Shown here: positions 12,101 to 53,254 of the stretch, one piece after another
How positions within the stretch are numbered: position 1 is the stretch's first letter
How the letters are laid out: the number at the start of each line of letters is the position of its first letter
NCBI GenBank assembly: GCA_956465555.1
Contig: OY101115.1
Span: forward strand, 496,001-560,000
DNA length: 64,000 nucleotides
Direction: 5' to 3'
Origin: Nitzschia sp. pyKryTriq1
Lineage: Eukaryota > Bacillariophyta > Bacillariophyceae > Bacillariales > Bacillariaceae
Translations under genes and position numbers: made by a program
The notes under the pieces: model-generated
What the model saw: only the letters and a program-made list of their open reading frames with translations
What the model was told of the DNA's origin: nothing
Database searches by the model: none

Positions 12101-12856
12101 TGCAATCGCCACTTCTCGAGCTTCTTGTGAGGAAATGGCCTTGGCATAGTCCATGGGGGTCCTGGCGTAGATGTCACGCACTTGACGACCATCGGGGTGG
12201 GCAGCCATAAGGGCTTTCAGAACTGCCTTCGACGAGCCCCATTTGCAGGCAAGATGGAGTGGAAGCATCAAGTCTGCAGTGTCTCGAAGTTTGGCACCAG
12301 CTGGGAAAGCAATGATAAGTTGTTGAACGACCTCACCGGAAGCTCCACAAGCACAGGCAAAGTGCAGTGGCAGTCGGCCGTGCTCTCCGGTAGCCTTCAA
12401 TGCGGCGCCGTTGACAGCGATCAGAGCATTCACCAAATCCAAGGAAGGATCGTACCGGCAAACTTCGTGCAGGAGAAGATTTCCTTTCGATGAAAGCGTG
12501 AATCCATTGGGTCCTCGGGTCATTCGGACAAAAGTGGATTGGGGGTTTGCCTTGACATGCTTCGTCAGGCCGCTCCAGTTTCCTTTCTCGACCAACTTAA
12601 ACATCTCGAATGCTTTGAACATGTCGACTCCAGGTGGAGCATCCTTGGTCGATTCTTCTGCGGGCATACCTTCACGCTCATCTCTGTGGGCGTATTTGTC
12701 TTGCGCTGGATCGTTCTCATCGCGTTCATCGGCAACATGGGCGGTGTTGTTTGCGAATTGGCGTCTGACATCGTCGCGCTTTCCATTCAGAAACGATTCC
12801 CATCGCATATCGAGTTCCTCCTCCTCGGCACGCCAGTTTTTAGCAGCAGTCGTCAT
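9140..12856 (-). CDS. Ankyrin-repeat and giant coiled-coil protein
   Basis: 1,238 aa from the ATG at 12856 in a single open frame. Residues 1-85 are charged and acidic. About 125-255 hold three to four ankyrin repeats (GRLPLHFACACGASGEVVQQL; LMLPLHLACKWGSSKAVLKAL; ARTPMDYA). From about 270 to 1080 there is almost uninterrupted coiled coil with many repeats of the form LEAEKQKxxxLE and LExEQxKVxxLE. The C-terminal ~100 residues differ: one hydrophobic stretch (TLVWTIPLIPIIAI), then Met/Asp-rich repeats FDPAMIRDLTRD and FDASMIREP. A scaffold or tether role, perhaps membrane-linked through the hydrophobic stretch, is inference. No intron is apparent. It is a paralogue of the next gene on the same strand. 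Confidence 0.85.
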   Translation of the reverse strand: MTTAAKNWRAEEEELDMRWESFLNGKRDDVRRQFANNTAHVADERDENDPAQDKYAHRDEREGMPAEESTKDAPPGVDMFKAFEMFKLVEKGNWSGLTKHVKANPQSTFVRMTRGPNGFTLSSKGNLLLHEVCRYDPSLDLVNALIAVNGAALKATGEHGRLPLHFACACGASGEVVQQLIIAFPAGAKLRDTADLMLPLHLACKWGSSKAVLKALMAAHPDGRQVRDIYARTPMDYAKAISSQEAREVAIACLQTNVRKQVTFKDRTSLVRNNATIADLREENTELANENKTVKSIKETQDSRMKSLEEEYMNLQSLQSSNKHKKAVLEKKIEVLIKANEVKQELIERLEHENGTKYEQELKRAIQGQEEKYKQMLRVEQYRVADLERRAKEVEITHRMYTNAILEEHEREAEDFEAFTMKFKDLEAHLRLQLSDAQEKNEFLETEVNEKSKKFKELISAEREKVAFLEGHVSKVNELLESEQKRFQELEDILKQTIAVENEQRDEMVEEFNKKEEHYKALLKTEQSKIASLQDDYEEVRQVLKMEIEKVSAFHNRENELKRLVELQQRKLRQLQDAERQLESEKQKCQFLQQSESQTRAQLAAEQNKVKFLESKLRAVQGELEVERATIEKLRSVLEQKHAEYEAEKKNVTALQKAQANKLKVIESLRQKVTILEEALTESKSLADQENEKLESVMRELDEVKELLVKERGVVEELHFSQKQLANLLESEKQKVKNLEQAQVVAEAETQSGHDDVFDEHSQKRLIENQKLLNIERARIANLKEEQLQLNSILDSKSTKLVVLEARLSEKETQLKAEKQKFEALERQQAETEDILQTEQKRAGQLEREHKQSQECIEAEKAHIKSLEMALIEAKSHIESVEVKLDTLGRVKRSVGQSFTEIEKEQMGEVGSILAQYRAQLEAEQDLVQELEFELSEARTLCNTEKQKVADLKLAYDRASADLESEQKAVESLEQDRTRKSVIIESEQNKVKALEHARDQLQALLEWEKNTLKSHLAKHGEVEGRLKAAETQLSETMASLDEKTMAVEVLTAQLESLGELRKEVVRLNAQARQRDVLLASVLKTIGNDKNLLKDEYIKDAKIQVGDLRRIIGLDLAGLEDAALMEGGALIVTPRRDLATMRRIRRTLVWTIPLIPIIAISQDPSILEGITSSLDPQMLQDMTAHFAALSANFDPAMIRDLTRDLTTNLANNFDASMIREPIAQMFGMATQMATGSRMP

Positions 12857-13597
12857 CTTCGTTATTGGTACAATATTATAGACGAAGGAGGTATGTATAC
12901 TGTGTTATTGATCTTCAGAAATGTGAACTCAAAGTCAAACTTGTTGGCGGCAGAACTGATACTGTGTGAGATTGTCGGCGAACAGTCTCGCCACTTCCCT
13001 CCAGTATTCGCTAATAATCGTCGATCGCGTAAAATCAGCGATATACTAGGCTTCGTATAGGTATATTAGAATATTTGATTCGCCCTATGTGTTCAAAATA
13101 ATTTTATGAATATTTAAGTAAAGTTGACTGGCATGCTCGATATGAATAGCTTAAGCCATGAAGACGCAATTATACTTTGGCGCGCCGGACGACCCTCACA
13201 TTCTTGCTCATCGTGTCACACTCCTTCACATCTTCCATTCCGCGAGCGGAATGTGAATGTCCAGCTTTCTGCTGAGAAGAGAAGAGAAAGAAGGGCTTGT
13301 GACCTCGGCACAGTCGGCACACGTACTATTGCAACAATACCTGAATAATCTCATGACCACTGATCCTGCTGAAGGCTTGAAGTACTGTATAACACGACGG
13401 CCAATAACATAGCGGTGTTGTACCTGTAGTAGAGGATGGTCGAACCACAACGTAGAGCCTACAGTACAACTGCTCGAAGGTCTCTGCTCGGCATATTCGA
13501 TACTCAGTCAATGAGATTGCTATATCACTATTGATAATTATTACACTGTATTATTTCTGTGAAAATCATACCTTCTTGTCCGAATTGCCTTATGTTC
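12857..13597. other. Intergenic between ankyrin paralogues
   Basis: About 740 bp with no supported gene. It presumably holds the promoter of the 9.1-12.9 kb gene and the 3' end of the next. The minus-strand frame of the neighbour may be spliced near 13661, so a small terminal exon could be hidden here. I could not identify one. Confidence 0.4.
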
Positions 13598-16500
13598 TTA
13601 TCTCGCATATTTTCTCCACGTAGGAGAAAGACCAAAGTAGCCGGCGACATGAGTCAGGTATCGCTTACCTTTCACACTAAAAGCTTTCCTCAGGAGACTT
13701 TCCGAGGGCGAATTGTTCTTCTTGATCACGACGCCACGTTTTGGTTTTTGTTCTTCTATGAGTCGCTGCTCATATTTCTTGGCAAGGAGAGCTTCCTTCA
13801 CGAGGTGAGAAATCGATAAGGTGGTGTCAACGAAACAATATAATTTGCTTTGGCCAGCAATCATTTGTCTTCGCTCCTGGAATTTCTCCAAGCTCTCAGT
13901 AATTCTCTGCTCTTTCTCCATTAGCGATGATGCTTTGGATGCTCGCGCCTCTATGGCCTTGACCGCCTCGTCGGTCTCAAAAAGGAGCTCCTCTTTCTCT
14001 GCGCGTGCTTTCTCGGTGGCCTCGAGTAACTTTTTCTCTTCCGACAGCATGTCTTCCCCCGCCCTTACACACTTTGCGATATCGTCCTGAATTCTTTGCT
14101 TCTTCTTGAGCAGCGTCTCCTTTTCTGAAAGAACGTGTTGTAATTTATTGACTAGCTCACGCTCTGTCCTGAAAAGTCCCTCCTTTTCCTTTTTCGACGC
14201 TTGGAGCGCTTTCACCAAGTTCTGTTCCGAGACAAAGAGTGCCTCTTTCTGTGCGTAAATTGCTTCTAGCTCTCTCATCTTGCTCCCTTCGGATTCCAGC
14301 AACGCTTGTTTTTGGGCGATGGTCTGCTGCAACGTCTTCTCCTTCATTTGTTCGAGTTCCAGCAACGCTTGCTTGCGGCCCAAAAGATAGTCCAATTTTC
14401 GAACTTGTTCCTCTTCCGATTCGATCATTTGGCGTTTTTTATGGCGCAAGTTGTCCAACTGGCGAATTTTTTCTTCTTCTGCCTTCTGAAGCGATAATTT
14501 CCTTTCGATGCTTTCTTCCAGCACTTTCATAGTCTCCTGGCTCTTCTGTAGAAGGGATTCCTTTTCTCGTCGGAAACGCTCAAGTAGCTCGACCTTTTCC
14601 TGCTGAACATCAAGCAATTCTTGCTTTTTCGCGTTACTAATCTCGAGAGCACGGATAGCTTCTCTATTTGCCTCCAATTTAGACTCGGTCTCGCTTCGGT
14701 CAAGCTCAATTCTTCTTGTGGTTTCTTCATCGATGTCTGAGCTGGTGGGCGCGTCGTGTAGTTTTGGAATTCCTCCAGCTACCTTGGTGGCTTTTTCTTC
14801 TTCCAGCCGTTTCAATTTCGCCTGCTCAACGTTCAAGCTTTCTCCCAAGTGCTTTGTCTTGAGTCTCTCATTCTGAAGGAGTATTCGCATCTCGGAAAAT
14901 CTCTGCTCTGCATCCTTTGTGCGCTCCTTCTCGTTGTCCAACATTTCCTGCTTTGCAACCAGGGATTGCTCAAGAGCGCTGATCTTGCATTGCTCAATCT
15001 TCAGGACGCTTTCGAGATCTCGCGTCTTCTCAATATACAATCTATTCTTTTCTGCAGTAAGTTGGAGTTGAGTCTCGGCCAGCTGTGACTCCAAAGTTTG
15101 GGTCTTTTGTTTCATGTTCTCAATCGTACTCTTTTTCTCGTTCTCGGATTTCTCAAGGACGGCAACTCTACTCAGAGTGTATTCCAACAGAGAATGGTCC
15201 TCGCGGGCTTTCTTCTCCTTAGCTTCCTTTTCCAACCGAGCTTTGCGTGAGAAATTCTGCACCCTTTCCTGCTCCTCCCGAAGCGTTGCTTTCGTATCAG
15301 CGAGGAGGCTAGATAGAGTCGTGATATTGCGTTTGAGTGAGTTCTGAATGCACTTTACCACCTGATCTCGAATGGTTTGGTCTTGTAGGCTCATGGCGCA
15401 GTCCATCGGCGTCAAACCGTGATTATCTTCGGCAAAAGTAGCTTCCGGGTGTGCCTCCAGGAGCACTTCAAGCACTTCGATCGTTGCTCCTTGTCTGCAA
15501 GCAAAATGTAGCGGCAACATGTTATCATGATCGTCGGGTGTGATCAAAGAATCAGGATATGCTTCAATCAAAACTTCAATAACGTCGACTGATGCTCCGA
15601 ACGCGCACGCGTAGTGAAGCGGCAAATGTCCTCCAATTCCATGTCTTTTGACATCGTCTTTGTTCCTCTCCAACCAAAGACGAATGACCTCAACTGTGGG
15701 CTGGTTCTTGCAGATTTCATGGAAGAAAGAATCTCCAAGAGAATCCCGACCGAGGAAGCTCACTTGATCTTCGATGGATACATCGGTCAACGATGAGAAT
15801 TCTCCGACCCGTTCAATGACTCGGTGCCATTGTCTCTGGTTGATCAAGGTCGAAAGAGACGGAACGGTAGTCTCCTCCTCGGACTTGGTATCCACTTGTT
15901 CCTTCGATCCCATGTTTCCGATTCTATCCTCATCTGATTGCCACTCGACTGAATTATCAAGCATAGAGCCCTCGGATGATGCGTTGGTCAATTCAGTCGC
16001 GAGGTTATTGCTCAAGGACAAAGTTCGGTTTGTACTGCCTTCCATGGAGTCATTCGGGCTTTCTCGTTCCAGCGTATCTGCCGGTTCTTCTTCAATCGGA
16101 TACATTCTTTCCGATTCGCTTTCGGTGGACTGGCTGATTGTGTCGGCACACCAGACAACAACTTTTTCTTCCTCTTCTTCACTTGTGCTAACTTCTGGGG
16201 CGTCGCTGGAATTCTCAAGTTTACCAGCAGCAGCTTCTGGCTTTTCTTGTTCCGGTCGGTTCTCCGGATTCTCTAGAACCATTTCGAATTCAGCTTCAAT
16301 GAAGTTTTCGTTGGATTGAGAGCCACTCAATGCTGGTGGGGTGGGATCGGGCTCATCTCTTCGGGTGCTGGTCTCTTCACGAGGACTTCCCTCTTCCTCG
16401 TTGTCCCTCAACGAGTGATCATTGTTGTGGCGATTGGATCCCAAGGTATCACTACATTCCAGTGTCCCATCATCTCGCTCATCTACACAAGGATCATTTT

Positions 16501-16615
16501 CCTCCGATAGAGCTGGATCATCGTGTTCCTCGTTCTTCCCCAGATCGGAAAGCATCGAACGCTCGAAGCAGGCCTCGATGCCCATGTCGTCGGAGGTCAC
16601 GGAAACTGGCTTCAT
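13598..16615 (-). CDS. Ankyrin-repeat and coiled-coil protein, paralogue
   Basis: 1,005 aa from the ATG at 16615 (a GTG three codons upstream is not needed). Residues 1-270 are acidic and Ser/Thr-rich. About 295-430 carry ankyrin repeats (HLPLHYACAFGASVDVIEVL; NMLPLHFACRQGATIEVLEV; HGLTPMDCA) in the same order and spacing as the neighbour. From about 430 to 940 there is continuous coiled coil with repeated QKALLESE, KQELLDVQ and KEGLFRTE units. The last ~20 codons follow AAAGGTAAGC, a strong splice-donor sequence at 13661, so the true C-terminus may be a further exon. It is clearly related to the 1,238-aa neighbour by domain order, though the acidic N-terminus is longer and the C-terminal hydrophobic region is absent. 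Confidence 0.8.
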   Translation of the reverse strand: MKPVSVTSDDMGIEACFERSMLSDLGKNEEHDDPALSEENDPCVDERDDGTLECSDTLGSNRHNNDHSLRDNEEEGSPREETSTRRDEPDPTPPALSGSQSNENFIEAEFEMVLENPENRPEQEKPEAAAGKLENSSDAPEVSTSEEEEEKVVVWCADTISQSTESESERMYPIEEEPADTLERESPNDSMEGSTNRTLSLSNNLATELTNASSEGSMLDNSVEWQSDEDRIGNMGSKEQVDTKSEEETTVPSLSTLINQRQWHRVIERVGEFSSLTDVSIEDQVSFLGRDSLGDSFFHEICKNQPTVEVIRLWLERNKDDVKRHGIGGHLPLHYACAFGASVDVIEVLIEAYPDSLITPDDHDNMLPLHFACRQGATIEVLEVLLEAHPEATFAEDNHGLTPMDCAMSLQDQTIRDQVVKCIQNSLKRNITTLSSLLADTKATLREEQERVQNFSRKARLEKEAKEKKAREDHSLLEYTLSRVAVLEKSENEKKSTIENMKQKTQTLESQLAETQLQLTAEKNRLYIEKTRDLESVLKIEQCKISALEQSLVAKQEMLDNEKERTKDAEQRFSEMRILLQNERLKTKHLGESLNVEQAKLKRLEEEKATKVAGGIPKLHDAPTSSDIDEETTRRIELDRSETESKLEANREAIRALEISNAKKQELLDVQQEKVELLERFRREKESLLQKSQETMKVLEESIERKLSLQKAEEEKIRQLDNLRHKKRQMIESEEEQVRKLDYLLGRKQALLELEQMKEKTLQQTIAQKQALLESEGSKMRELEAIYAQKEALFVSEQNLVKALQASKKEKEGLFRTERELVNKLQHVLSEKETLLKKKQRIQDDIAKCVRAGEDMLSEEKKLLEATEKARAEKEELLFETDEAVKAIEARASKASSLMEKEQRITESLEKFQERRQMIAGQSKLYCFVDTTLSISHLVKEALLAKKYEQRLIEEQKPKRGVVIKKNNSPSESLLRKAFSVKGKRYLTHVAGYFGLSPTWRKYAR

Positions 16616-17347
16616 TGTGACCACTCAAGCGGTTGTTTCTTGGGTGGTAAATGAACAAAGTGAACGCTCCTCTGTCGGTGTTACGACTTTTGCAATTGTT
16701 TGTCACAAAATAAAAGCCCTTGGAGGATGTTTTTGCTTTCTTCGTCTTCTTCCTTTGTTCTTGCGAAGCGGATGTTGTGGCAGCAGTTTTGTCACGGGTC
16801 GGTCGCACTCCGGGCTCTGCGGAATATTCAATTCTAGGTGCTCGAAGATATGGAAATGATCGCTGCAGGCTATACTTAGGGATCTGGATTGGCGATTGGC
16901 GAGCTTGAGTGTCACACCACTGGCCAATTATTTTACGCATCATCATGCCCGCCCGCTACGTATGCCACTAGCGGCGGGCTATTTTTTGTGTTTATTATTG
17001 CGGGTACGTACTCACATTAATTCATTGAGCATACATACAAAGAAGCATACTCGTACCCACATCCCCGTTCTGGGTCTGTCTGTCTGTACCGTATGCGTGC
17101 TGCGCTGCATGCAGTACCAGGTACCGGTACTGGTACACGTACTCGTACAGGCGACGGGAAACGACCAAAAAACAAAAAACATCACAATGCACTACCGGTA
17201 CCTACACAGTATTCAGTATCTGCATCCAACGCATCATAAACTCTTCTTGCCGATTCATATTGATACTCGCAGATCCTCCTGCTCTCCACTCTACTAGGAG
17301 AAGCAGGGAATCATCTACTCTTGAATCAACCCCCAAAACTGAGGAAA
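16616..17347. other. Divergent intergenic region with GC-rich hairpin
   Basis: A 730-bp divergent region. At 16947-16979 the arms GCCCGCCCGCT and AGCGGCGGGC form a ~10-bp stem with one bulged C and a loop of about 12 nt, followed by T-rich DNA (CTATTTTTTG). Around 17100-17155 lies a dense run of GTAC and ACCGGT palindromes. A leader intron for the 17.3-kb gene cannot be excluded. Confidence 0.4.
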
Positions 17348-40626: not shown

Positions 40627-40634
40627 TTCTCGTT
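40627..40634. repeat. Target-site duplication, left copy
   Basis: TTCTCGTT directly before the first transposon copy. The same 8 bp follow the second copy at 53247-53254. The empty site would read CTTTTCTCGTTAGCTG. Confidence 0.7.
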
Positions 40635-40857
40635 GGCAGGTGTAACACTACGGTGCCTTCAAATACCGACTCCGTGTACCACAATTCTTCGTAGACTTGC
40701 ACGTAGAGCGTTGGAGTCGGTTGACTGGCACGAATAGTTTCTCCGACTCCAGCGCTTTTCCGATTTTGGCGCGCAAGGCACAAAGAATGACATGTTGTTC
40801 TTCTTATTGTTTGTCTCTTTCCCTCGTACCAAGTACAAAATATAATATAATACTAAC

Positions 40858-43800
40858 ATGGTCAAATCCAAATCAGGACGACCAAAAGGAAAGAAGAACC
40901 AGGCCGGCCACAAAGCTGGTGGTGCTCGTCGAGGTTTGGCCTACGAGGAGCAAAAAAGAAGGAACCATGAAGCAACCATGCGTGTGTTCGATGAACGCAT
41001 CCAACGCAACACTGAACGTCGTGCAGCGGACCCAAAGCCAACCGATTGGATCCCTCATCCCATGAGCGAAGAGTCGCTCAAAGCTTCCCATGAACTATTG
41101 GAATTATCACTTTCTCATGCTTCCATGCCAGCCAGCCGTAATTTTGCCGATATCATTGATCCTGATTCAATGCCCGCCCATGAAAGTGATGATGCAGACA
41201 TTGACTACGATACCGATGACGAGGAAGATGAATCGCCAACTGTCACACGCTTCCGGCAAGGCTACATGCCACCCAAGAATTCCATACTTGGCATTTACCT
41301 TGAGAGTGTTAGGAAGAAACTGGTTGCAAAATTGTATTCAGCCTCAGTCCGAACAATTCCGTCTCCTTCGAATCCCCTACACTCGCCACTCAAGACGCCG
41401 AGTCCAAACGAGTTCTACACAGATATTGTCTGCCACATCCATGACCCCATCCGTCAGTCATGCGATGTAGAGCGTTATTTCTGCCCCTCGTGTGGAGAAA
41501 AATGCAAACTAGGGCAATGGCGATACCGCCCAGCATTTAATTGGGGGCAGATTGACTGGATATTCTACCGTCGTGTGGAATGCACAGCGACAAAGGCGTG
41601 CACTGGGGGAAAACAGTTGAGAAAGACATGGTCTACGATCGATCCTCGCTTCCTTGCAACGCTCCCTACGATTCCAGGTCGACATTTTGAGTGGATCTTC
41701 CCAGCGTCGGGCCCCGGCGTCCATGTCTCTATGCAGCGCGCCCTCTCCATTTTGACTGGCGACGGCAATCTTCTTTACTCCAAGTTCGCTTCGATGGTGA
41801 ATCAAATGATTAGACAGCAATATTATCTTGATTATTTGGCGTACATGGCCAAACTGGAGGGTTGGTTGGCGAATTGGCCGACCCTTGAAGATTACAAGGG
41901 GACGCCTCCTCTACAAGCTATTGGCTACGATGGGAGACCCATGAAACCCTTCTCTGCTTTCGGGCAAGTCGGAGAGTACAATGCCTTCCCCATGACTCCT
42001 AGGCTGGCTGAAGCGATTTTCAAAATAGACATGAAAGCTAGGCACGGGTACATGCAGGCCTCATTTCAAATGCGCCATGATGATACCTTGATGGCTGATG
42101 ACACCCACAAGAATCCGAAGAAGATTTTTGTGAATACAAGTGGACGATCAAGGGTGCAGCCATTCTCTACGCTACAGACTACATTGTCAAGGAAGGGATT
42201 TGTAGTGCTCGCTCGATACAAGCACTCAAAAAGCCACCTCGAGGTAGACGCCATCCTACAAGGCATGAAGAAGGTTCGAGAGAATGCTGGTGCGCCGACT
42301 CTGGCTTATGTTCATGTGGACAACATACCGGATGCTCTACCATATGAAAGAACCTGGCCAGAGAAGTTAGTGAATGAGATTGATTTGTTTTCGCCAGACT
42401 CTGACCTGCCGTTATTGGAAAAAGTTGATCATCTTTTCTTCAAGACGTGGGAGTCCGTTGACGAATATTTACTTTCCGTTCAAGAAGAGATAGCATCAAG
42501 CGGCACTGTTGTAGGATTGGATACTGAATTTTCGAATGGGACTGACTTGACGATGATAGCCATTTCATTTTCAGGTCTTCCAACTCTTGTTATTCACACA
42601 AAGTCCATGACAAAAATGCCAGAGCAGCTGCAAGGAATACTGGAGAATACGAGATTCCAATTTGTTGCGAGAAACATTGGCACAGATTGTTCAATGATCG
42701 AGAAGGAGTATGGGATCGTAGTCCCTCGTCGTCGTGAGCTTCGAGATCTCGTCCTTGAAGATAGACCCGAATATGGGCAACGGGCGTTTGGTGGTACTGG
42801 AATAGAAAACCTCGTCAAAGTATACCTTGGAATTCGTCTTCCAGTAACCAAGGAGGTGGGACAAAGATTCGACTATGGTATTCCGGCAGATCAAATCCCA
42901 AGGGATCTGATCTACTATGTGGCGTGTGACGCCCACTTCCATCGGGACATAGCAAGTCGCGCCATTGAATCCATTCGAGCTAGACTAGATTCGAACTCAC
43001 TTCCAGCACCGGTTACAGCTCTGAAGGAGGGTTCCGACGTTTTTCTTCTAAGATATGGCAAACGTAGTGCCAAGGGCCGCGTCGAATTCGTTGCATCCAA
43101 TGGTTCTCAGCAAAAATGGGGAAAGGAAACTGTCGGGAAAGGGAAGGCACTTGTTCGGATCACTCATGTAATTGTTCCTGGATACAAGCCGCCCATCATG
43201 TTCCGTCATTCTTCGGATGATCACTTGAGTTGGGCCAAGGATGAGACGTTGGGCACTCTGTGGGATCGCCTTGGTGGCAATTTAGTCGTCGCCGTCAAGA
43301 CTGGCAATGTCGAGCTACTCGAGGCGCCGGACAGCAAAGCAACGATTCCAGCACCGACGCAGACTGCTACCACTAGTAGAAAAGCCCCCCCTGCCTCGGT
43401 CACGAAGAAGAGCCATGATAGCGAGATCTCCAAAGGAGGAAACTCGGACAAGTCGGCCGACAGCGAAGGAGACGGCGACAAAGGAGACGACGACGACCGA
43501 AAAGTTGTTCCACGGTACTCTCGTAATCTGAGAGACATCTTCCATCAATTCCACTGCATTCCACTCCCAAGGAAGACGCTCATTGTAGTCACTATTTATT
43601 CTTTGGTCGTTGCTGCGACATATGTTCGTAACCAAGACGATCTGAAAGCAGTGATGGAAGTGCTGGAGTCGAAGGGGGTCAGCGATTTGGAGGAGCATGA
43701 ATACTGGAACAAGGATTACTGGCGGAGCCGTGTTCGGAGTGTTCCGCCCGATGCCGCCACTCATTCAAGAAATATTCGCGAGATTCACCAATTGATCCGA

Positions 43801-45789
43801 TCGGAAAAGGAGTTTGAGAAATATCTCACACCAGCGCTGCACAAATGGTTCGAGACTTTTGCTGATCTTGCCGAGCGCGGACACTACCAGCCACCAAGCG
43901 ATACTCCGTTGTTCGCCATCACAGACTATGATGTCGATGGACTGCCCGTTTATGCTTCTCTTTCAGGGACATGCAGAAATGAGGCGGTACATCAAAAGTA
44001 TTACGACTTGATCGGATCGTACGCCGTGGGGGTAATGACTGCCCATTACCTGTCGGTGATACGCTCGTTCCGATGGAATATCGCCACAGGTATAAAACGA
44101 TGCGGTGAGCCAGACTTTGGAATGGACCACCTGTACATCATTGATGAGATCCAATTTTTTACGTTAAAAATTTTCACCAAGCACATATGGCCCGGTCATT
44201 TGAATATGCTGGACTTTGCAGCTGTGGATTTCATCTCTGTTGGTGTCGGTCCTCTGAATTTCTGCGATGCACACGTCAAAATGGGGAAGCCGCGCGCATC
44301 GTTGTCGAGCGATTATAAGTTCATGGCAGAGATGGAGGGCGTCGAGCTTCCGCCTTTGCCGATCAAAGGGCATGACGAGTCCAAGCTTTTCAACAGACTT
44401 ATGAAGGAGCGTACTCAGAAAGGAAAGGGTACCAGCAGTGACGACCTCTGGGACTGGATGGCCCGTGAATTCTTGCGTCTGGCCGATGGAAAAACTATCT
44501 TTCCGAAATTGCCACAGCTCTTGAAATCTCACTACACAACATGGAAGTATTCCAGATTGCTACAAGCATTCAAAGAGCGAGTAAAGGAGCCCGTGAAAAT
44601 TCTAAAAAGGAAATTCCATGCACAGAGAGTCGACCCTCCAATGATCGAGACGCTGCAGCCGTATTCCACGCCAGCCTCACGGATTATGAAGACAGAGCTT
44701 CCAGAAAAGGCTAACTTTGTACCACCTGTCGCCTGTCCGGGTCAGAAAAAGTTTGTTGGGTCTCAAAGACCAAGTGGTGCACAATCAGCGGAACAAGACA
44801 TTTCAAGACGGCCAAGCCTTCTTGACCAAAAGATACTCAGGAAGTACGCCGCAGTTTGCGCCAATTTCCCAAGATGTCAGCTCCAAGCGGGAGTGTGTGG
44901 TGGGTACACCAGAGAGAAATGCTGTCTCTTTGAGGACTCTTGGATTCAGGAGAGTACAAGTAGTAGTGCTGCCAAGAAAGAGCGTGAGGCTCAAATTAGA
45001 AAGGAACGATGCTTCTTGGCGAAGTACTCCAAGAGAAGGAGACTTGGCCATGAGGAAGCTGCGACAGTAGAGATTAGCGACCGGATGGCCATAAATGGGC
45101 CATATCGGGTCAGCATTGGCATGCTTGTCGTATCCAGCCATGATGCTGCCCCGCTTCTCCGAACAGGGGCACTGATCAACGATAATATCGTTTCTGCATA
45201 TTCAAACCTTCTTTGCCATTTGGCCCAAAAGACAGGGATCAAGCTTAGGGTCGTACCCCCTAATTTTCTGCCATTCCTAGAAGCCAATGGCTGGGAAGGC
45301 GTTTACAACTACATGAACCTAACTCGCTCAGGTGCACCCAGCTGGGATAGTGCTGATCTTGTATTCATCCCATGCTTCTTTGGAAACAATCAGAGCGGGC
45401 ACTGGACTGCCTTCGTTCTTTGGAAGCACAACGGCACTATCACACCCTTGTACATGGACAGCTTAAAAAGCTATCGGAGGGAAACTGTGGTCGATCAGCG
45501 TTTCCGAAAAATGCCAATGTTCCCAGAACAACCAGTGTGCATGATGTCAACTCCTCAACAATGCTCCTCCTCCAACGACTGCGCAGTTTTTACGCTGCTC
45601 TTTTTTGCAGGCTTCTTACAAGCATATTCCTCCAAGAACGAGCAGCAGCAAACGGCACCTATTGCAATTGAAATAACGACTACCGCTGAGACTTTTGGCA
45701 TGGAGGGTAGACGCCATATACTGGAGGCGATAAAAGGTCATTATATTGACCTCGTACGTGCCACTCAATATCTGAAAATAAAAATGTAA
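40858..45789 (+). CDS. Transposase with embedded 3'-5' exonuclease and Ulp1-type protease, copy 1
   Basis: 1,643 aa, intact. N-terminus basic (GRPKGKKNQ, AT-hook-like), acidic around 108-125. A Cys cluster at 202-248 (FCPSCGEKC; CTATKAC) looks zinc-binding. A candidate RNase H-like DDE core follows: Asp415 in ADDTHKNPKK, Asp488 in YVHVDNIPD, and after a long insertion Glu1042 in SGTCRNEAVHQ followed by FRWN. The insertion (about 540-705) is a DEDDy exonuclease: VVGLDTEFSNG (Asp555, Glu557), NIGTD (Asp610) and YVACD (Tyr687, Asp691). Residues 835-885 are an acidic linker. A Cys-rich knot (1334-1356) precedes a C48 protease (1420-1590): GHW (His1515), YMD (Asp1534), PQQC (Gln1567/1568) and NDCAVF (Cys1575). 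Roles in strand transfer, end trimming and self-processing or deSUMOylation are inference. Confidence 0.85.
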   Translation: MVKSKSGRPKGKKNQAGHKAGGARRGLAYEEQKRRNHEATMRVFDERIQRNTERRAADPKPTDWIPHPMSEESLKASHELLELSLSHASMPASRNFADIIDPDSMPAHESDDADIDYDTDDEEDESPTVTRFRQGYMPPKNSILGIYLESVRKKLVAKLYSASVRTIPSPSNPLHSPLKTPSPNEFYTDIVCHIHDPIRQSCDVERYFCPSCGEKCKLGQWRYRPAFNWGQIDWIFYRRVECTATKACTGGKQLRKTWSTIDPRFLATLPTIPGRHFEWIFPASGPGVHVSMQRALSILTGDGNLLYSKFASMVNQMIRQQYYLDYLAYMAKLEGWLANWPTLEDYKGTPPLQAIGYDGRPMKPFSAFGQVGEYNAFPMTPRLAEAIFKIDMKARHGYMQASFQMRHDDTLMADDTHKNPKKIFVNTSGRSRVQPFSTLQTTLSRKGFVVLARYKHSKSHLEVDAILQGMKKVRENAGAPTLAYVHVDNIPDALPYERTWPEKLVNEIDLFSPDSDLPLLEKVDHLFFKTWESVDEYLLSVQEEIASSGTVVGLDTEFSNGTDLTMIAISFSGLPTLVIHTKSMTKMPEQLQGILENTRFQFVARNIGTDCSMIEKEYGIVVPRRRELRDLVLEDRPEYGQRAFGGTGIENLVKVYLGIRLPVTKEVGQRFDYGIPADQIPRDLIYYVACDAHFHRDIASRAIESIRARLDSNSLPAPVTALKEGSDVFLLRYGKRSAKGRVEFVASNGSQQKWGKETVGKGKALVRITHVIVPGYKPPIMFRHSSDDHLSWAKDETLGTLWDRLGGNLVVAVKTGNVELLEAPDSKATIPAPTQTATTSRKAPPASVTKKSHDSEISKGGNSDKSADSEGDGDKGDDDDRKVVPRYSRNLRDIFHQFHCIPLPRKTLIVVTIYSLVVAATYVRNQDDLKAVMEVLESKGVSDLEEHEYWNKDYWRSRVRSVPPDAATHSRNIREIHQLIRSEKEFEKYLTPALHKWFETFADLAERGHYQPPSDTPLFAITDYDVDGLPVYASLSGTCRNEAVHQKYYDLIGSYAVGVMTAHYLSVIRSFRWNIATGIKRCGEPDFGMDHLYIIDEIQFFTLKIFTKHIWPGHLNMLDFAAVDFISVGVGPLNFCDAHVKMGKPRASLSSDYKFMAEMEGVELPPLPIKGHDESKLFNRLMKERTQKGKGTSSDDLWDWMAREFLRLADGKTIFPKLPQLLKSHYTTWKYSRLLQAFKERVKEPVKILKRKFHAQRVDPPMIETLQPYSTPASRIMKTELPEKANFVPPVACPGQKKFVGSQRPSGAQSAEQDISRRPSLLDQKILRKYAAVCANFPRCQLQAGVCGGYTREKCCLFEDSWIQESTSSSAAKKEREAQIRKERCFLAKYSKRRRLGHEEAATVEISDRMAINGPYRVSIGMLVVSSHDAAPLLRTGALINDNIVSAYSNLLCHLAQKTGIKLRVVPPNFLPFLEANGWEGVYNYMNLTRSGAPSWDSADLVFIPCFFGNNQSGHWTAFVLWKHNGTITPLYMDSLKSYRRETVVDQRFRKMPMFPEQPVCMMSTPQQCSSSNDCAVFTLLFFAGFLQAYSSKNEQQQTAPIAIEITTTAETFGMEGRRHILEAIKGHYIDLVRATQYLKIKM

Positions 45790-45993
45790 TCAATGGTATC
45801 TCAATGGAATCTCACCATAGGAAACAGTCAATTGAAAACATGAAACATTTAAATTGTAACGCATGTCAATAAGAAATAAAAATAGATTAATTTAATATAA
45901 AATCGCCTCGATTAATGTAAGGAAATATATTATTTAACAATCCTTCATTGATCAAACTATGTAAAAACACCCGTATTAATATTGCAATTCAAG

Positions 45994-46025
45994 AATGCTC
46001 GCATAAAAAATGTGTACGAACAACT
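45994..46025. repeat. 32-bp direct repeat, left of satellite (copy 1)
   Basis: Begins AATGCTCGCATAAAAAATG and ends AACAACT. The identical sequence recurs at 46587-46618, so the pair brackets the 41-bp array. It probably arose as the ends of the amplified block. Confidence 0.75.
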
Positions 46026-46073
46026 AAAAATGTAGACGTGTTGTTTTTGTTGTGTTGTTGTCGTTACCACATG

Positions 46074-46562
46074 AATGTACAACAATGTCTATTACTAGCG
46101 CTATCGCGTGAATGAATGTACAACAATGTCTATTACTAGCGCTATCGCGTGAATGAATGTACAACAATGTCTATTACTAGCGCTATCGCGTGCTCGAATG
46201 TACAACAATGTCTATTACTAGCGCTATCGCGTGAATGAATGTACAACAATGTCTATTACTAGCGCTATCGCGTGCTCGAATGTACAACAATGTCTATTAC
46301 TAGCGCTATCGCGCGAACGAATGTACAACAATGTCTATTACTAGCGCTATCGCGTGAATGAATGTACAACAATGTCTATTACTAGCGCTATCGCGTGCTC
46401 GAATGTACAACAATGTCTGTTACTAGCGCTATCGCGCGAACGAATGTACAACAATGTCTATTACTAGCGCTATCGCGTGGATAAAAATAAAATAATGTCT
46501 GTTACTAGCGCTATCGCGTGAATGAATGTACAACAATGTCTATTACTAGTGCTATCGCGTGG
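46074..46562. repeat. 41-bp satellite array (copy 1)
   Basis: About twelve tandem units of 41 bp, each carrying AATGTACAACAATGTCTATT and then ACTAGCGCTATCGCG. Each unit contains the palindrome TAGCGCTA. Units differ mainly at the 3-4 nt after CGCG (TGAATG, TGCTCG, CGAACG), giving a partly regular order of variants. One late unit is divergent (AAAATAAAATAATG). It is likely a subterminal binding array of the transposon. Confidence 0.88.
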
Positions 46563-46586
46563 TTTTCGCGTGCTCGAATGTACAAT

Positions 46587-46618
46587 AATGCTCGCATAAA
46601 AAATGTGTACGAACAACT
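46587..46618. repeat. 32-bp direct repeat, right of satellite (copy 1)
   Basis: Exact second copy of the repeat at 45994-46025, immediately after the satellite array. Confidence 0.75.
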
Positions 46619-46937
46619 GGAAGATGCGCGCGTGAATTCCGAAAATTTTCGGGGTGGAGGTTGCTGCCCCTAGAGTAGACCCCCGCTTTCCTGTGGAATC
46701 CGCCCCCAAACGGGGCCCAAGTCGAGTCAAGTCAGTCAAGGGACTCCGAGACCGACTCCAACGCATTCTCCGGGTTCCAACGTATTTTCTGCGCGATGGA
46801 GTTTTTGATTTCAAAATCAACTTTCGGTCGGACTAATCGGTGAGAATGACTCCGACAGCTTCTCCGACAGCGGCTAGTAAATTTCACCTTTTCCCCTCTT
46901 TTCAAAAAGTCCAGGGCACACAGGTCAAATATGTGCC

Positions 46938-46943
46938 CTCGTT
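46938..46943. other. 6-nt spacer between tandem transposon copies
   Basis: CTCGTT, equal to the last six bases of the outer 8-bp target duplication, is all that separates the right end of copy 1 from the left end of copy 2. Confidence 0.75.
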
Positions 46944-47166
46944 GGCAGGTGTAACACTACGGTGCCTTCAAATACCGACTCCGTGTACCACAATTCTTCG
47001 TAGACTTGCACGTAGAGCGTTGGAGTCGGTTGACTGGCACGAATAGTTTCTCCGACTCCAGCGCTTTTCCGATTTTGGCGCGCAAGGCACAAAGAATGAC
47101 ATGTTGTTCTTCTTATTGTTTGTCTCTTTCCCTCGTACCAAGTACAAAATATAATATAATACTAAC

Positions 47167-50100
47167 ATGGTCAAATCCAAATCAGGACGACCAAAAGGAA
47201 AGAAGAACCAGGCCGGCCACAAAGCTGGTGGTGCTCGTCGAGGTTTGGCCTACGAGGAGCAAAAAAGAAGGAACCATGAAGCAACCATGCGTGTGTTCGA
47301 TGAACGCATCCAACGCAACACTGAACGTCGTGCAGCGGACCCAAAGCCAACCGATTGGATCCCTCATCCCATGAGCGAAGAGTCGCTCAAAGCTTCCCAT
47401 GAACTATTGGAATTATCACTTTCTCATGCTTCCATGCCAGCCAGCCGTAATTTTGCCGATATCATTGATCCTGATTCAATGCCCGCCCATGAAAGTGATG
47501 ATGCAGACATTGACTACGATACCGATGACGAGGAAGATGAATCGCCAACTGTCACACGCTTCCGGCAAGGCTACATGCCACCCAAGAATTCCATACTTGG
47601 CATTTACCTTGAGAGTGTTAGGAAGAAACTGGTTGCAAAATTGTATTCAGCCTCAGTCCGAACAATTCCGTCTCCTTCGAATCCCCTACACTCGCCACTC
47701 AAGACGCCGAGTCCAAACGAGTTCTACACAGATATTGTCTGCCACATCCATGACCCCATCCGTCAGTCATGCGATGTAGAGCGTTATTTCTGCCCCTCGT
47801 GTGGAGAAAAATGCAAACTAGGGCAATGGCGATACCGCCCAGCATTTAATTGGGGGCAGATTGACTGGATATTCTACCGTCGTGTGGAATGCACAGCGAC
47901 AAAGGCGTGCACTGGGGGAAAACAGTTGAGAAAGACATGGTCTACGATCGATCCTCGCTTCCTTGCAACGCTCCCTACGATTCCAGGTCGACATTTTGAG
48001 TGGATCTTCCCAGCGTCGGGCCCCGGCGTCCATGTCTCTATGCAGCGCGCCCTCTCCATTTTGACTGGCGACGGCAATCTTCTTTACTCCAAGTTCGCTT
48101 CGATGGTGAATCAAATGATTAGACAGCAATATTATCTTGATTATTTGGCGTACATGGCCAAACTGGAGGGTTGGTTGGCGAATTGGCCGACCCTTGAAGA
48201 TTACAAGGGGACGCCTCCTCTACAAGCTATTGGCTACGATGGGAGACCCATGAAACCCTTCTCTGCTTTCGGGCAAGTCGGAGAGTACAATGCCTTCCCC
48301 ATGACTCCTAGGCTGGCTGAAGCGATTTTCAAAATAGACATGAAAGCTAGGCACGGGTACATGCAGGCCTCATTTCAAATGCGCCATGATGATACCTTGA
48401 TGGCTGATGACACCCACAAGAATCCGAAGAAGATTTTTGTGAATACAAGTGGACGATCAAGGGTGCAGCCATTCTCTACGCTACAGACTACATTGTCAAG
48501 GAAGGGATTTGTAGTGCTCGCTCGATACAAGCACTCAAAAAGCCACCTCGAGGTAGACGCCATCCTACAAGGCATGAAGAAGGTTCGAGAGAATGCTGGT
48601 GCGCCGACTCTGGCTTATGTTCATGTGGACAACATACCGGATGCTCTACCATATGAAAGAACCTGGCCAGAGAAGTTAGTGAATGAGATTGATTTGTTTT
48701 CGCCAGACTCTGACCTGCCGTTATTGGAAAAAGTTGATCATCTTTTCTTCAAGACGTGGGAGTCCGTTGACGAATATTTACTTTCCGTTCAAGAAGAGAT
48801 AGCATCAAGCGGCACTGTTGTAGGATTGGATACTGAATTTTCGAATGGGACTGACTTGACGATGATAGCCATTTCATTTTCAGGTCTTCCAACTCTTGTT
48901 ATTCACACAAAGTCCATGACAAAAATGCCAGAGCAGCTGCAAGGAATACTGGAGAATACGAGATTCCAATTTGTTGCGAGAAACATTGGCACAGATTGTT
49001 CAATGATCGAGAAGGAGTATGGGATCGTAGTCCCTCGTCGTCGTGAGCTTCGAGATCTCGTCCTTGAAGATAGACCCGAATATGGGCAACGGGCGTTTGG
49101 TGGTACTGGAATAGAAAACCTCGTCAAAGTATACCTTGGAATTCGTCTTCCAGTAACCAAGGAGGTGGGACAAAGATTCGACTATGGTATTCCGGCAGAT
49201 CAAATCCCAAGGGATCTGATCTACTATGTGGCGTGTGACGCCCACTTCCATCGGGACATAGCAAGTCGCGCCATTGAATCCATTCGAGCTAGACTAGATT
49301 CGAACTCACTTCCAGCACCGGTTACAGCTCTGAAGGAGGGTTCCGACGTTTTTCTTCTAAGATATGGCAAACGTAGTGCCAAGGGCCGCGTCGAATTCGT
49401 TGCATCCAATGGTTCTCAGCAAAAATGGGGAAAGGAAACTGTCGGGAAAGGGAAGGCACTTGTTCGGATCACTCATGTAATTGTTCCTGGATACAAGCCG
49501 CCCATCATGTTCCGTCATTCTTCGGATGATCACTTGAGTTGGGCCAAGGATGAGACGTTGGGCACTCTGTGGGATCGCCTTGGTGGCAATTTAGTCGTCG
49601 CCGTCAAGACTGGCAATGTCGAGCTACTCGAGGCGCCGGACAGCAAAGCAACGATTCCAGCACCGACGCAGACTGCTACCACTAGTAGAAAAGCCCCCCC
49701 TGCCTCGGTCACGAAGAAGAGCCATGATAGCGAGATCTCCAAAGGAGGAAACTCGGACAAGTCGGCCGACAGCGAAGGAGACGGCGACAAAGGAGACGAC
49801 GACGACCGAAAAGTTGTTCCACGGTACTCTCGTAATCTGAGAGACATCTTCCATCAATTCCACTGCATTCCACTCCCAAGGAAGACGCTCATTGTAGTCA
49901 CTATTTATTCTTTGGTCGTTGCTGCGACATATGTTCGTAACCAAGACGATCTGAAAGCAGTGATGGAAGTGCTGGAGTCGAAGGGGGTCAGCGATTTGGA
50001 GGAGCATGAATACTGGAACAAGGATTACTGGCGGAGCCGTGTTCGGAGTGTTCCGCCCGATGCCGCCACTCATTCAAGAAATATTCGCGAGATTCACCAA

Positions 50101-52098
50101 TTGATCCGATCGGAAAAGGAGTTTGAGAAATATCTCACACCAGCGCTGCACAAATGGTTCGAGACTTTTGCTGATCTTGCCGAGCGCGGACACTACCAGC
50201 CACCAAGCGATACTCCGTTGTTCGCCATCACAGACTATGATGTCGATGGACTGCCCGTTTATGCTTCTCTTTCAGGGACATGCAGAAATGAGGCGGTACA
50301 TCAAAAGTATTACGACTTGATCGGATCGTACGCCGTGGGGGTAATGACTGCCCATTACCTGTCGGTGATACGCTCGTTCCGATGGAATATCGCCACAGGT
50401 ATAAAACGATGCGGTGAGCCAGACTTTGGAATGGACCACCTGTACATCATTGATGAGATCCAATTTTTTACGTTAAAAATTTTCACCAAGCACATATGGC
50501 CCGGTCATTTGAATATGCTGGACTTTGCAGCTGTGGATTTCATCTCTGTTGGTGTCGGTCCTCTGAATTTCTGCGATGCACACGTCAAAATGGGGAAGCC
50601 GCGCGCATCGTTGTCGAGCGATTATAAGTTCATGGCAGAGATGGAGGGCGTCGAGCTTCCGCCTTTGCCGATCAAAGGGCATGACGAGTCCAAGCTTTTC
50701 AACAGACTTATGAAGGAGCGTACTCAGAAAGGAAAGGGTACCAGCAGTGACGACCTCTGGGACTGGATGGCCCGTGAATTCTTGCGTCTGGCCGATGGAA
50801 AAACTATCTTTCCGAAATTGCCACAGCTCTTGAAATCTCACTACACAACATGGAAGTATTCCAGATTGCTACAAGCATTCAAAGAGCGAGTAAAGGAGCC
50901 CGTGAAAATTCTAAAAAGGAAATTCCATGCACAGAGAGTCGACCCTCCAATGATCGAGACGCTGCAGCCGTATTCCACGCCAGCCTCACGGATTATGAAG
51001 ACAGAGCTTCCAGAAAAGGCTAACTTTGTACCACCTGTCGCCTGTCCGGGTCAGAAAAAGTTTGTTGGGTCTCAAAGACCAAGTGGTGCACAATCAGCGG
51101 AACAAGACATTTCAAGACGGCCAAGCCTTCTTGACCAAAAGATACTCAGGAAGTACGCCGCAGTTTGCGCCAATTTCCCAAGATGTCAGCTCCAAGCGGG
51201 AGTGTGTGGTGGGTACACCAGAGAGAAATGCTGTCTCTTTGAGGACTCTTGGATTCAGGAGAGTACAAGTAGTAGTGCTGCCAAGAAAGAGCGTGAGGCT
51301 CAAATTAGAAAGGAACGATGCTTCTTGGCGAAGTACTCCAAGAGAAGGAGACTTGGCCATGAGGAAGCTGCGACAGTAGAGATTAGCGACCGGATGGCCA
51401 TAAATGGGCCATATCGGGTCAGCATTGGCATGCTTGTCGTATCCAGCCATGATGCTGCCCCGCTTCTCCGAACAGGGGCACTGATCAACGATAATATCGT
51501 TTCTGCATATTCAAACCTTCTTTGCCATTTGGCCCAAAAGACAGGGATCAAGCTTAGGGTCGTACCCCCTAATTTTCTGCCATTCCTAGAAGCCAATGGC
51601 TGGGAAGGCGTTTACAACTACATGAACCTAACTCGCTCAGGTGCACCCAGCTGGGATAGTGCTGATCTTGTATTCATCCCATGCTTCTTTGGAAACAATC
51701 AGAGCGGGCACTGGACTGCCTTCGTTCTTTGGAAGCACAACGGCACTATCACACCCTTGTACATGGACAGCTTAAAAAGCTATCGGAGGGAAACTGTGGT
51801 CGATCAGCGTTTCCGAAAAATGCCAATGTTCCCAGAACAACCAGTGTGCATGATGTCAACTCCTCAACAATGCTCCTCCTCCAACGACTGCGCAGTTTTT
51901 ACGCTGCTCTTTTTTGCAGGCTTCTTACAAGCATATTCCTCCAAGAACGAGCAGCAGCAAACGGCACCTATTGCAATTGAAATAACGACTACCGCTGAGA
52001 CTTTTGGCATGGAGGGTAGACGCCATATACTGGAGGCGATAAAAGGTCATTATATTGACCTCGTACGTGCCACTCAATATCTGAAAATAAAAATGTAA
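47167..52098 (+). CDS. Transposase with embedded 3'-5' exonuclease and Ulp1-type protease, copy 2
   Basis: 1,643 aa, identical in translation to the gene at 40858-45789, with the same catalytic residues: DDE candidates 415, 488 and 1042; exonuclease 555, 557, 610, 687 and 691; protease 1515, 1534, 1567/1568 and 1575. The leader from the element end to the ATG (about 220 bp) is also the same, so both copies should be expressed equally if the promoter is internal. No intron is suggested. Its perfect integrity argues for recent activity. Confidence 0.85.
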   Translation: MVKSKSGRPKGKKNQAGHKAGGARRGLAYEEQKRRNHEATMRVFDERIQRNTERRAADPKPTDWIPHPMSEESLKASHELLELSLSHASMPASRNFADIIDPDSMPAHESDDADIDYDTDDEEDESPTVTRFRQGYMPPKNSILGIYLESVRKKLVAKLYSASVRTIPSPSNPLHSPLKTPSPNEFYTDIVCHIHDPIRQSCDVERYFCPSCGEKCKLGQWRYRPAFNWGQIDWIFYRRVECTATKACTGGKQLRKTWSTIDPRFLATLPTIPGRHFEWIFPASGPGVHVSMQRALSILTGDGNLLYSKFASMVNQMIRQQYYLDYLAYMAKLEGWLANWPTLEDYKGTPPLQAIGYDGRPMKPFSAFGQVGEYNAFPMTPRLAEAIFKIDMKARHGYMQASFQMRHDDTLMADDTHKNPKKIFVNTSGRSRVQPFSTLQTTLSRKGFVVLARYKHSKSHLEVDAILQGMKKVRENAGAPTLAYVHVDNIPDALPYERTWPEKLVNEIDLFSPDSDLPLLEKVDHLFFKTWESVDEYLLSVQEEIASSGTVVGLDTEFSNGTDLTMIAISFSGLPTLVIHTKSMTKMPEQLQGILENTRFQFVARNIGTDCSMIEKEYGIVVPRRRELRDLVLEDRPEYGQRAFGGTGIENLVKVYLGIRLPVTKEVGQRFDYGIPADQIPRDLIYYVACDAHFHRDIASRAIESIRARLDSNSLPAPVTALKEGSDVFLLRYGKRSAKGRVEFVASNGSQQKWGKETVGKGKALVRITHVIVPGYKPPIMFRHSSDDHLSWAKDETLGTLWDRLGGNLVVAVKTGNVELLEAPDSKATIPAPTQTATTSRKAPPASVTKKSHDSEISKGGNSDKSADSEGDGDKGDDDDRKVVPRYSRNLRDIFHQFHCIPLPRKTLIVVTIYSLVVAATYVRNQDDLKAVMEVLESKGVSDLEEHEYWNKDYWRSRVRSVPPDAATHSRNIREIHQLIRSEKEFEKYLTPALHKWFETFADLAERGHYQPPSDTPLFAITDYDVDGLPVYASLSGTCRNEAVHQKYYDLIGSYAVGVMTAHYLSVIRSFRWNIATGIKRCGEPDFGMDHLYIIDEIQFFTLKIFTKHIWPGHLNMLDFAAVDFISVGVGPLNFCDAHVKMGKPRASLSSDYKFMAEMEGVELPPLPIKGHDESKLFNRLMKERTQKGKGTSSDDLWDWMAREFLRLADGKTIFPKLPQLLKSHYTTWKYSRLLQAFKERVKEPVKILKRKFHAQRVDPPMIETLQPYSTPASRIMKTELPEKANFVPPVACPGQKKFVGSQRPSGAQSAEQDISRRPSLLDQKILRKYAAVCANFPRCQLQAGVCGGYTREKCCLFEDSWIQESTSSSAAKKEREAQIRKERCFLAKYSKRRRLGHEEAATVEISDRMAINGPYRVSIGMLVVSSHDAAPLLRTGALINDNIVSAYSNLLCHLAQKTGIKLRVVPPNFLPFLEANGWEGVYNYMNLTRSGAPSWDSADLVFIPCFFGNNQSGHWTAFVLWKHNGTITPLYMDSLKSYRRETVVDQRFRKMPMFPEQPVCMMSTPQQCSSSNDCAVFTLLFFAGFLQAYSSKNEQQQTAPIAIEITTTAETFGMEGRRHILEAIKGHYIDLVRATQYLKIKM

Positions 52099-52302
52099 TC
52101 AATGGTATCTCAATGGAATCTCACCATAGGAAACAGTCAATTGAAAACATGAAACATTTAAATTGTAACGCATGTCAATAAGAAATAAAAATAGATTAAT
52201 TTAATATAAAATCGCCTCGATTAATGTAAGGAAATATATTATTTAACAATCCTTCATTGATCAAACTATGTAAAAACACCCGTATTAATATTGCAATTCA
52301 AG

Positions 52303-52334
52303 AATGCTCGCATAAAAAATGTGTACGAACAACT
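52303..52334. repeat. 32-bp direct repeat, left of satellite (copy 2)
   Basis: Counterpart of 45994-46025, offset 6,309 bp, with its partner at 52896-52927 on the other side of the array. Confidence 0.7.
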
Positions 52335-52382
52335 AAAAATGTAGACGTGTTGTTTTTGTTGTGTTGTTGTCGTTACCACATG

Positions 52383-52871
52383 AATGTACAACAATGTCTA
52401 TTACTAGCGCTATCGCGTGAATGAATGTACAACAATGTCTATTACTAGCGCTATCGCGTGAATGAATGTACAACAATGTCTATTACTAGCGCTATCGCGT
52501 GCTCGAATGTACAACAATGTCTATTACTAGCGCTATCGCGTGAATGAATGTACAACAATGTCTATTACTAGCGCTATCGCGTGCTCGAATGTACAACAAT
52601 GTCTATTACTAGCGCTATCGCGCGAACGAATGTACAACAATGTCTATTACTAGCGCTATCGCGTGAATGAATGTACAACAATGTCTATTACTAGCGCTAT
52701 CGCGTGCTCGAATGTACAACAATGTCTGTTACTAGCGCTATCGCGCGAACGAATGTACAACAATGTCTATTACTAGCGCTATCGCGTGGATAAAAATAAA
52801 ATAATGTCTGTTACTAGCGCTATCGCGTGAATGAATGTACAACAATGTCTATTACTAGTGCTATCGCGTGG
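52383..52871. repeat. 41-bp satellite array (copy 2)
   Basis: Same number, order and variants of 41-bp units as in copy 1. Tandem arrays usually change unit number quickly, so this identity points to a very recent duplication. Confidence 0.85.
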
Positions 52872-52895
52872 TTTTCGCGTGCTCGAATGTACAAT

Positions 52896-52927
52896 AATGC
52901 TCGCATAAAAAATGTGTACGAACAACT
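52896..52927. repeat. 32-bp direct repeat, right of satellite (copy 2)
   Basis: Counterpart of 46587-46618, offset 6,309 bp. Confidence 0.7.
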
Positions 52928-53246
52928 GGAAGATGCGCGCGTGAATTCCGAAAATTTTCGGGGTGGAGGTTGCTGCCCCTAGAGTAGACCCCCGCTTTCC
53001 TGTGGAATCCGCCCCCAAACGGGGCCCAAGTCGAGTCAAGTCAGTCAAGGGACTCCGAGACCGACTCCAACGCATTCTCCGGGTTCCAACGTATTTTCTG
53101 CGCGATGGAGTTTTTGATTTCAAAATCAACTTTCGGTCGGACTAATCGGTGAGAATGACTCCGACAGCTTCTCCGACAGCGGCTAGTAAATTTCACCTTT
53201 TCCCCTCTTTTCAAAAAGTCCAGGGCACACAGGTCAAATATGTGCC

Positions 53247-53254
53247 TTCTCGTT
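53247..53254. repeat. Target-site duplication, right copy
   Basis: TTCTCGTT directly after copy 2, matching 40627-40634. The flanking host sequence continues AGCTGCCTCTGCC. Confidence 0.7.

Follow-up and report, generated by a model that had tools for sequence, protein, structure and literature searches.

The locus studied here raises the question of what kind of transposon encodes a candidate DDE transposase, a 3'-5' exonuclease and an Ulp1-type protease in one protein, and of how such an element might move. It is situated in a stretch of 64,000 nucleotides from Nitzschia sp. pyKryTriq1, which is called the window in the following. The genome comprises 20 contigs with 40.65 Mb. It contains 72 light-harvesting (LHC) matches, and therefore the host is a photosynthetic alga and not a fungus, which had been considered at first; both of the two proteins that were compared with the PDB matched light-harvesting chains, with fucoxanthin-type chains among the top matches. 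A comparison of the window with Rfam yielded no match at gathering scores. The window also holds two large ankyrin-repeat ORFs on the minus strand (9143-12904 and 13601-16624).

Two identical copies in the window

The initial annotation had described the region from 40635 to 53246 as a single intact transposon. The element is real, but the region contains two of them, i.e., identical copies of 6,303 bp that are arranged head to tail with a period of 6,309 bp and are separated by 6 bp (Table 1). It was verified that the gene is uninterrupted, as had been claimed; counted from the first Met, a single open frame of 1,643 aa is present in both copies. The reported ends and the 8-bp target duplication were also recovered: GGCA/TGCC ends are present, TTCTCGTT is found on both outer sides of the tandem, and a second site, on contig C2 (L042:306-6608), harbors a third identical copy with the 8-bp duplication CTGCCGCG. 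The proposal that the element was recently mobile was thus supported by three identical copies at two sites with 8-bp duplications, and the movement or copying must therefore have been very recent.

Two internal segments have counterparts elsewhere. Arrays of the 41-bp minisatellite occur also at dozens of genome loci outside of the element, mostly with 76-97% identity. About 207 bp right after the stop codon (45788-45994) recur as a whole or in part at several loci with 94-99% identity, including C9:1016457, C4:88255, C3:1277555, C3:2235362 and C8:1136836, and this segment is possibly a short repeat that was captured by the element.

Table 1. Positions of the tandem transposon copies and of their features in the window.
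Feature	Position	Strand	Remarks
Left target-site duplication (TSD) TTCTCGTT	40627..40634	.	repeated directly after copy 2
Transposon copy 1, 6,303 bp, GGCAGG...ATGTGCC	40635..46937	+	identical to copy 2 and L042:306-6608
Left tip GGCAGGTGTAACACTACGGTGCC, weak hairpin	40635..40657	+	z -1.4, 19/200 shuffles as good: not significant
Transposase ORF copy 1, 1,643 aa	40858..45789	+	Met 40858, stop 45789
N-terminal zinc ribbon	41482..41583	+	Cys209, Cys212, Cys242 invariant in 10/10; resembles ISL3 zinc ribbon
Candidate catalytic Asp414	42097..42099	+	invariant in 10/10
Candidate catalytic Asp488	42319..42321	+	invariant in 10/10
DEDDy 3'-5' exonuclease (Asp555, Glu557, Asp610, Tyr687, Asp691)	42493..42951	+	Pfam sub-threshold; WRN matched by the alignment profile in the PDB
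Candidate catalytic Glu1042 in GT..NE..H	43981..43983	+	invariant in 10/10
Ulp1-type C48 protease domain	45175..45645	+	residues 1444-1600; Pfam exactly at cut-off
41-bp minisatellite, 12 units, copy 1	46071..46561	+
Right tip GGCACA(N11)TGTGCC, potential hairpin with 6-bp perfect stem	46915..46937	+	z -2.6, 3/200 shuffles as good
Junction spacer CTCGTT, 6 bp, head-to-tail	46938..46943	.	identical to final 6 nt of left TSD
Transposon copy 2	46944..53246	+	identical to copy 1
Transposase ORF copy 2, 1,643 aa	47167..52098	+
41-bp minisatellite, copy 2	52380..52870	+
Right target-site duplication TTCTCGTT	53247..53254	.	same 8 bp as left of copy 1

A conserved core with an embedded exonuclease

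Ten relatives that share the DDE-exonuclease core were found; they stem from the Nitzschia genome, from metagenomes and from a mushroom, while a search of viral contigs yielded none that could be confirmed. P0002-P0007 are 26-43% identical to the protein of the window element (P0001, in which residue numbers equal the Met-based numbers plus 4). An alignment of 10 sequences (A3, with P0008 left out) was used to evaluate the catalytic residues. The initial annotation had proposed Asp415, Asp488 and Glu1042 as DDE triad. The latter two are invariant in all 10 sequences, but the position of Asp415 is occupied by D, H, V or T, and the first catalytic Asp was thus corrected to the neighboring, invariant Asp414. 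With this correction D, D and E are each conserved in 10/10 sequences, although the relatives have only 18-43% identity to the query. The D-D spacing is 70-74 and the D-E distance is 531-675 residues, and the exonuclease lies inside the latter stretch. Asp1096 and Asp1152 are further invariant acidic residues outside of the exonuclease, and therefore the triad is the best candidate, but not proven. From the conservation it seems that the core adopts a DDE fold.

The exonuclease prediction could be corroborated. In P0001 PF01612 remained sub-threshold (20.3 bits versus a cut-off of 23.6), but it was above threshold in six of the nine relatives scanned (P0003, P0005, P0006, P0010, P0011 and the C8 protein), below threshold in P0002 and P0004, and absent from the match list of P0007. 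A profile made from the 10-sequence alignment matched the WRN exonuclease (3.8e-29) and EXD2 (2.9e-25) in the PDB, and all five DEDDy positions are kept across the alignment. The C48 protease was also confirmed, with a Pfam score exactly at the cut-off. All five proteins that have this region retain His, Asp and Cys, and reading the alignment by eye revealed that the oxyanion Gln is Q in all five. P0003, without a Pfam Ulp1 match, and P0007, with a match below the cut-off, have both kept the protease region and its catalytic residues. As a guess, the target of the Ulp1 domain is probably SUMO, a host protein similar to SUMO, or the transposon protein itself.

Six of the ten relatives (P0005, P0006, P0008, P0010, P0011 and the C8 protein) were devoid of an Ulp1 match. 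Three of them, i.e., P0010, P0011 and the C8 protein of the Nitzschia genome, form a second subfamily, in which DUF6729 (PF20499) is combined with the PF01612 exonuclease in the same D...D-(exonuclease)...E order as in P0001. DUF6729 was over the cut-off in these three proteins and reached 26.0 versus a cut-off of 27 in P0004, where it occurs alongside Ulp1; P0001 does not reach the model. The C8 element shares the GGCA ends and the 8-bp target duplication with the window element; among the elements with DUF6729, these features are known for the C8 element only. The mushroom protein, Agrocybe chaxingu NLJ89_g7126 (P0008), is listed as "3'-5' exonuclease", and its precomputed Pfam list contains PF01612 only, neither Ulp1 nor DUF6729. 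A comparison at the protein level revealed that its D, D, E and DEDDy residues align and are kept, and when it was aligned with the second subfamily the same set was invariant in 4/4 sequences. The combination of activities had been regarded as novel in the initial annotation. The three-activity protein itself was supported, but a DDE core with an embedded exonuclease is not unique to it, because the core is also found in relatives without Ulp1, including P0008.

The 2,901-aa gene model of P0008 itself consists of two head-to-tail copies, the first 1,395 residues of which are identical. This may reflect a further tandem dimer or, alternatively, an effect of the assembly.

Ends, duplications and 6-bp junctions

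Reading inward, both tips of the window element begin with GGCA. Long terminal inverted repeats were considered and rejected, as the best alignment of the 300-base ends scored 35 and did not reach the 95% threshold of 43 that was obtained from 300 random pairs. The C8 element has 5,368 bp, terminal repeats of about 26 bp that start with GGCAACCA, and the duplication GAAATTTC; this pair of ends was picked from three candidates at the locus because it was the sole pair with matching ends. Further GGCA-ended copies with an 8-bp duplication, for which the initial annotation had suggested a search, are thus present in the genome, namely the third identical copy (CTGCCGCG) and the C8 element (GAAATTTC).

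Both outer ends could be read for 11 insertions of the two subfamilies. A perfect 8-bp duplication was present at six of them (C1, C2:2198k, C8, C17, C2:1376k and C16), which represent five independent sites, because C2:1376k and C16 have common flanks. At C7:457k the 8-bp duplication is displaced by 2 bp, and no duplication was found at the remaining four (C7:34k, C2:368k, C3:943k and C5:2080k). This set does not include C10, C13, C4 and C3:618k, which were not read at both ends, C2:519k, which has the left end only, the C3 dimer, which lacks its left end, a fragment of a right end at C10:49975 (84%), and internal pieces that contain no ends. A scan of L048 (C1:3999k) for element ends did not yield a convincing pair.

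Several C8-type copies are rearranged. L062 (C2:1376k) and L068 (C16:197k) have different internal deletions, but the same left flank and the same 8-bp duplication. L058 (C5:2080000-2082800) is composed of twelve matched pieces in scrambled and repeated order, 11 of which are 100% identical to the C8 element, and resembles the outcome of repeated template switching.

In the Ulp1 subfamily five loci have retained the left end. Head-to-tail dimers are present at three of these, namely in the window, at C7:34k and at C7:457k, while C2:2198k is a single copy and C2:519k is truncated. A genome-wide search for a right end, N(0-20) and a left end yielded three places, all with 6 bp, versus one place for the reversed control pattern. 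The three spacers differ from one another (CTCGTT, CCAGCA and TTGGGC). The analogous search for the C8 subfamily yielded three places, with spacers of 6, 17 and 18 bp, versus four for the control. The only place with 6 bp, C3:1205778 (GAAAAA), is also the one known to be bounded by element ends; at the two others no copy was found in an element search that scored only the best candidates. Newly seen here are thus four head-to-tail junctions in two subfamilies, and all recognised junctions (4/4) have exactly 6 bp. The chance of four equal spacers is about 1e-4 if lengths from 0 to 20 are equally likely, whereby four junctions are a small number and the patterns were exact, so that degenerate junctions would escape. 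With a shorter end pattern and a fixed 6-base gap six exact places were found, three of them at the element; when one mismatch was allowed there was no excess (62/58 places versus 45/75 for the control). Because the shorter pattern performed no better than the control, the argument rests on the junctions that are bounded by real ends.

The spacer in the window, CTCGTT, is identical to the six bases with which the left target duplication ends, i.e., to the 6 nt left of the element. No flank match was seen for the spacers at C7:34k and C7:457k. The GAAAAA spacer at C3:1205785-1205790, when reverse-complemented, matches the final six bases of the octamer CTTTTTTC in the right flank, which may be due to chance because the sequence is so simple. 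The three older junctions, the spacers of which have no flank match of the window type, lie in degenerate copies.

Bacterial elements offer a precedent. For ISCth4, a member of the IS256 family, junction spacers of 6-8 bp have been described, of which 6 bp integrates best, together with 8-bp duplications (PMC7780238), and the circles of IS256 and TnGBS hold 6-10 bp taken from one flank (PMC3942029). The window element has the 8-bp duplication and the 6-bp spacer, flank-derived in the window, in common with this family (ISCth4, TnGBS), but there is no sequence match, and the exonuclease and the protease are added. Because the same numbers, 6 and 8, are found in the IS256 type, an end-to-end joining made by the transposase is the best reading. 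The right end would attack 6 nt outside of the left end, either of its own element or of a sister copy, and the two ends would thereby become connected via 6 nt of flank. The joined product, which would be circular or a dimer generated in place in the chromosome, would be the moving or amplifying form, and it would integrate with an 8-bp stagger, as in copy-out/paste-in of the IS256 type. The dimer in the window could stem from a circle that recombined into a resident copy; alternatively, two sister copies could have been joined directly. The fixed gap is thus hinting at a circle-forming movement known from bacteria, although dimers in the genome are all that was seen. Patchwork deletions, displaced or absent duplications and older spacers that lack a flank match of the window type count against the circle route.

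These deletions, which contain scrambled filler at C5, C7 and C3, look like double-strand-break gap repair, and therefore ordinary cut-and-paste stays a serious rival, which we regard as possible at well below even odds. In this case both ends would be cut through and the gap would be repaired from the sister copy, and the tandems would arise as by-products, either from staggered cuts, from faulty repair of the gap or from unequal exchange. The 8-bp duplications are also in accordance with it. Unequal exchange was nevertheless rejected as the origin of the tandems, because it predicts, like re-annealing between duplications, spacers of 8 bp and not the observed 6 bp. Insertion beside a resident copy was also rejected, since reasoning from the sequences revealed that the predicted flanks are absent at all three Ulp1-type junctions. 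In addition, four unrelated spacers of one length argue for a distance that is set by an enzyme.

Relation to known transposon families

P0001 matched no known transposase family in NCBIfam, in PHROGs or, with E values up to 10, in Pfam, and the 43 PDB sequences listed for the family profile with the same E limit include no transposase. The profile searches thus agree with the initial view that no transposase family would be hit, and also with the statement that the protein matches neither hAT nor KDZ, as Pfam hAT and KDZ (PF18758) matches were missing from P0001 at E up to 10. A KDZ search of the genome yielded no match, but the controls were silent, too.

The Ulp1 domain also occurs in some KDZ/Zisupton elements and some MULEs, Novosib is a poorly described superfamily with 8-bp duplications, and in IS256 and MULE transposases the catalytic E is followed by ..H/N. 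It could thus be argued that the element is a highly diverged member of a named superfamily, e.g., MULE, KDZ, hAT or Novosib, that gained an exonuclease, and the 8-bp duplications as well as the E..H motif, which is similar to IS256/MULE and also to ISL3, would fit. This is unlikely, because P0001 has no Pfam match to MULE, KDZ or hAT at E up to 10, and because the signature of Mutator-like elements is missing from 9/10 sequences.

In the Mutator-like group (MULE/IS256, p-MULT) the second catalytic Asp is closely followed by a C/D(2)H signature (PMC3942029). Nine of the 10 sequences had no such string, and the one found within 80 residues (DNNH in P0011) is not conserved. Direct repeats of 8-9 bp are matched by the 8 bp at 6/11 insertions. 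Circular forms have been reported for maize Mu1 and Mu1.7 and for a Kluyveromyces MULE (PMC3942029), which would be in favor of a MULE origin; with respect to the flank-derived junctions of 6-10 bp, the length is matched in 4/4 cases, the flank origin in the window only, and the forms seen here are genomic dimers. KDZ/Zisupton has in common with the window element the 8-bp duplication, as found in a Dileera element (PMC12730594).

The N-terminal zinc ribbon resembles that of ISL3 (ISPpu12, ISPst9): with a profile from six ISL3 transposases an hhalign score of 50.3 was obtained, versus a maximum of 33.6 for 30 cysteine-keeping shuffles, and P0007 has a sub-threshold Zn_ribbon_ISL3 match. GG ends together with an 8-bp duplication were present in one of five ISL3 copies examined, and ISL3 circles have been reported (PMC3812183). 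An ISL3 origin of the DDE core was rejected, because its alignment scored 14.7, versus a maximum of 18.2 in 40 shuffled controls. KolobokP, which is also a eukaryotic DDE element, has an additional nuclease and tandem multimers, and a circle has been proposed for it, but unlike the window element it is composite, with long direct repeats common to neighboring units and a His-Me nuclease (PMC9587614).

As only the zinc ribbon is ISL3-like, the MULE signature is missing in 9/10 sequences and there is no KDZ match, the element was not assigned to a named superfamily but was grouped with its DUF6729-bearing relatives as one unnamed superfamily, in a comparison that covered Pfam, NCBIfam, PHROGs, PDB sequences and six ISL3 transposases. 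Searches of open-licence PMC papers, as opposed to Repbase with its Novosib entries, yielded no description of DUF6729 or of the DDE/exonuclease/Ulp1 combination, and the part of PMC3985635 that was consulted names no fusion of PF01612 with a transposase. In ISCth4 an all-helical insertion domain (261-325) lies between D241 and E348, and helical insertions are also present in Hermes, Transib, the P element and RAG1 (PMC7780238).

That the duplication in the window is an assembly product, made from one chromosomal copy and an extrachromosomal circle or by a mis-join, would explain the 100% identity of copies 1 and 2, but it is very improbable, because after a simple mis-join the 8-bp duplication would still be found between the copies, because DNA with the 6-bp junction must have existed, and because three other junctions sit in degenerate copies.

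Taken together, the element appears to represent an undescribed DDE superfamily that possibly uses a circle or dimer route, a reading to which we assign a probability of roughly 0.55. The more specific version, a eukaryotic superfamily with copy-out/paste-in via 6-bp-spaced circles or tandem dimers, in which a WRN-like exonuclease is built in at the place of the helical insertion domain of other transposases, is put forward tentatively, as it falls somewhat short of an even chance. The presence of a 3'-5' exonuclease within a transposase raises the question of which ends get trimmed; our guess is that these are probably 3' ends made at the donor or the target. DNA transposons of eukaryotes move largely by cut-and-paste, while bacterial transposition is dominated by replicative routes (PMC7780238). 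A family whose copies are intact and identical, and whose end-to-end junctions are fixed at 6 bp, would allow a direct eukaryotic test of the circle route.
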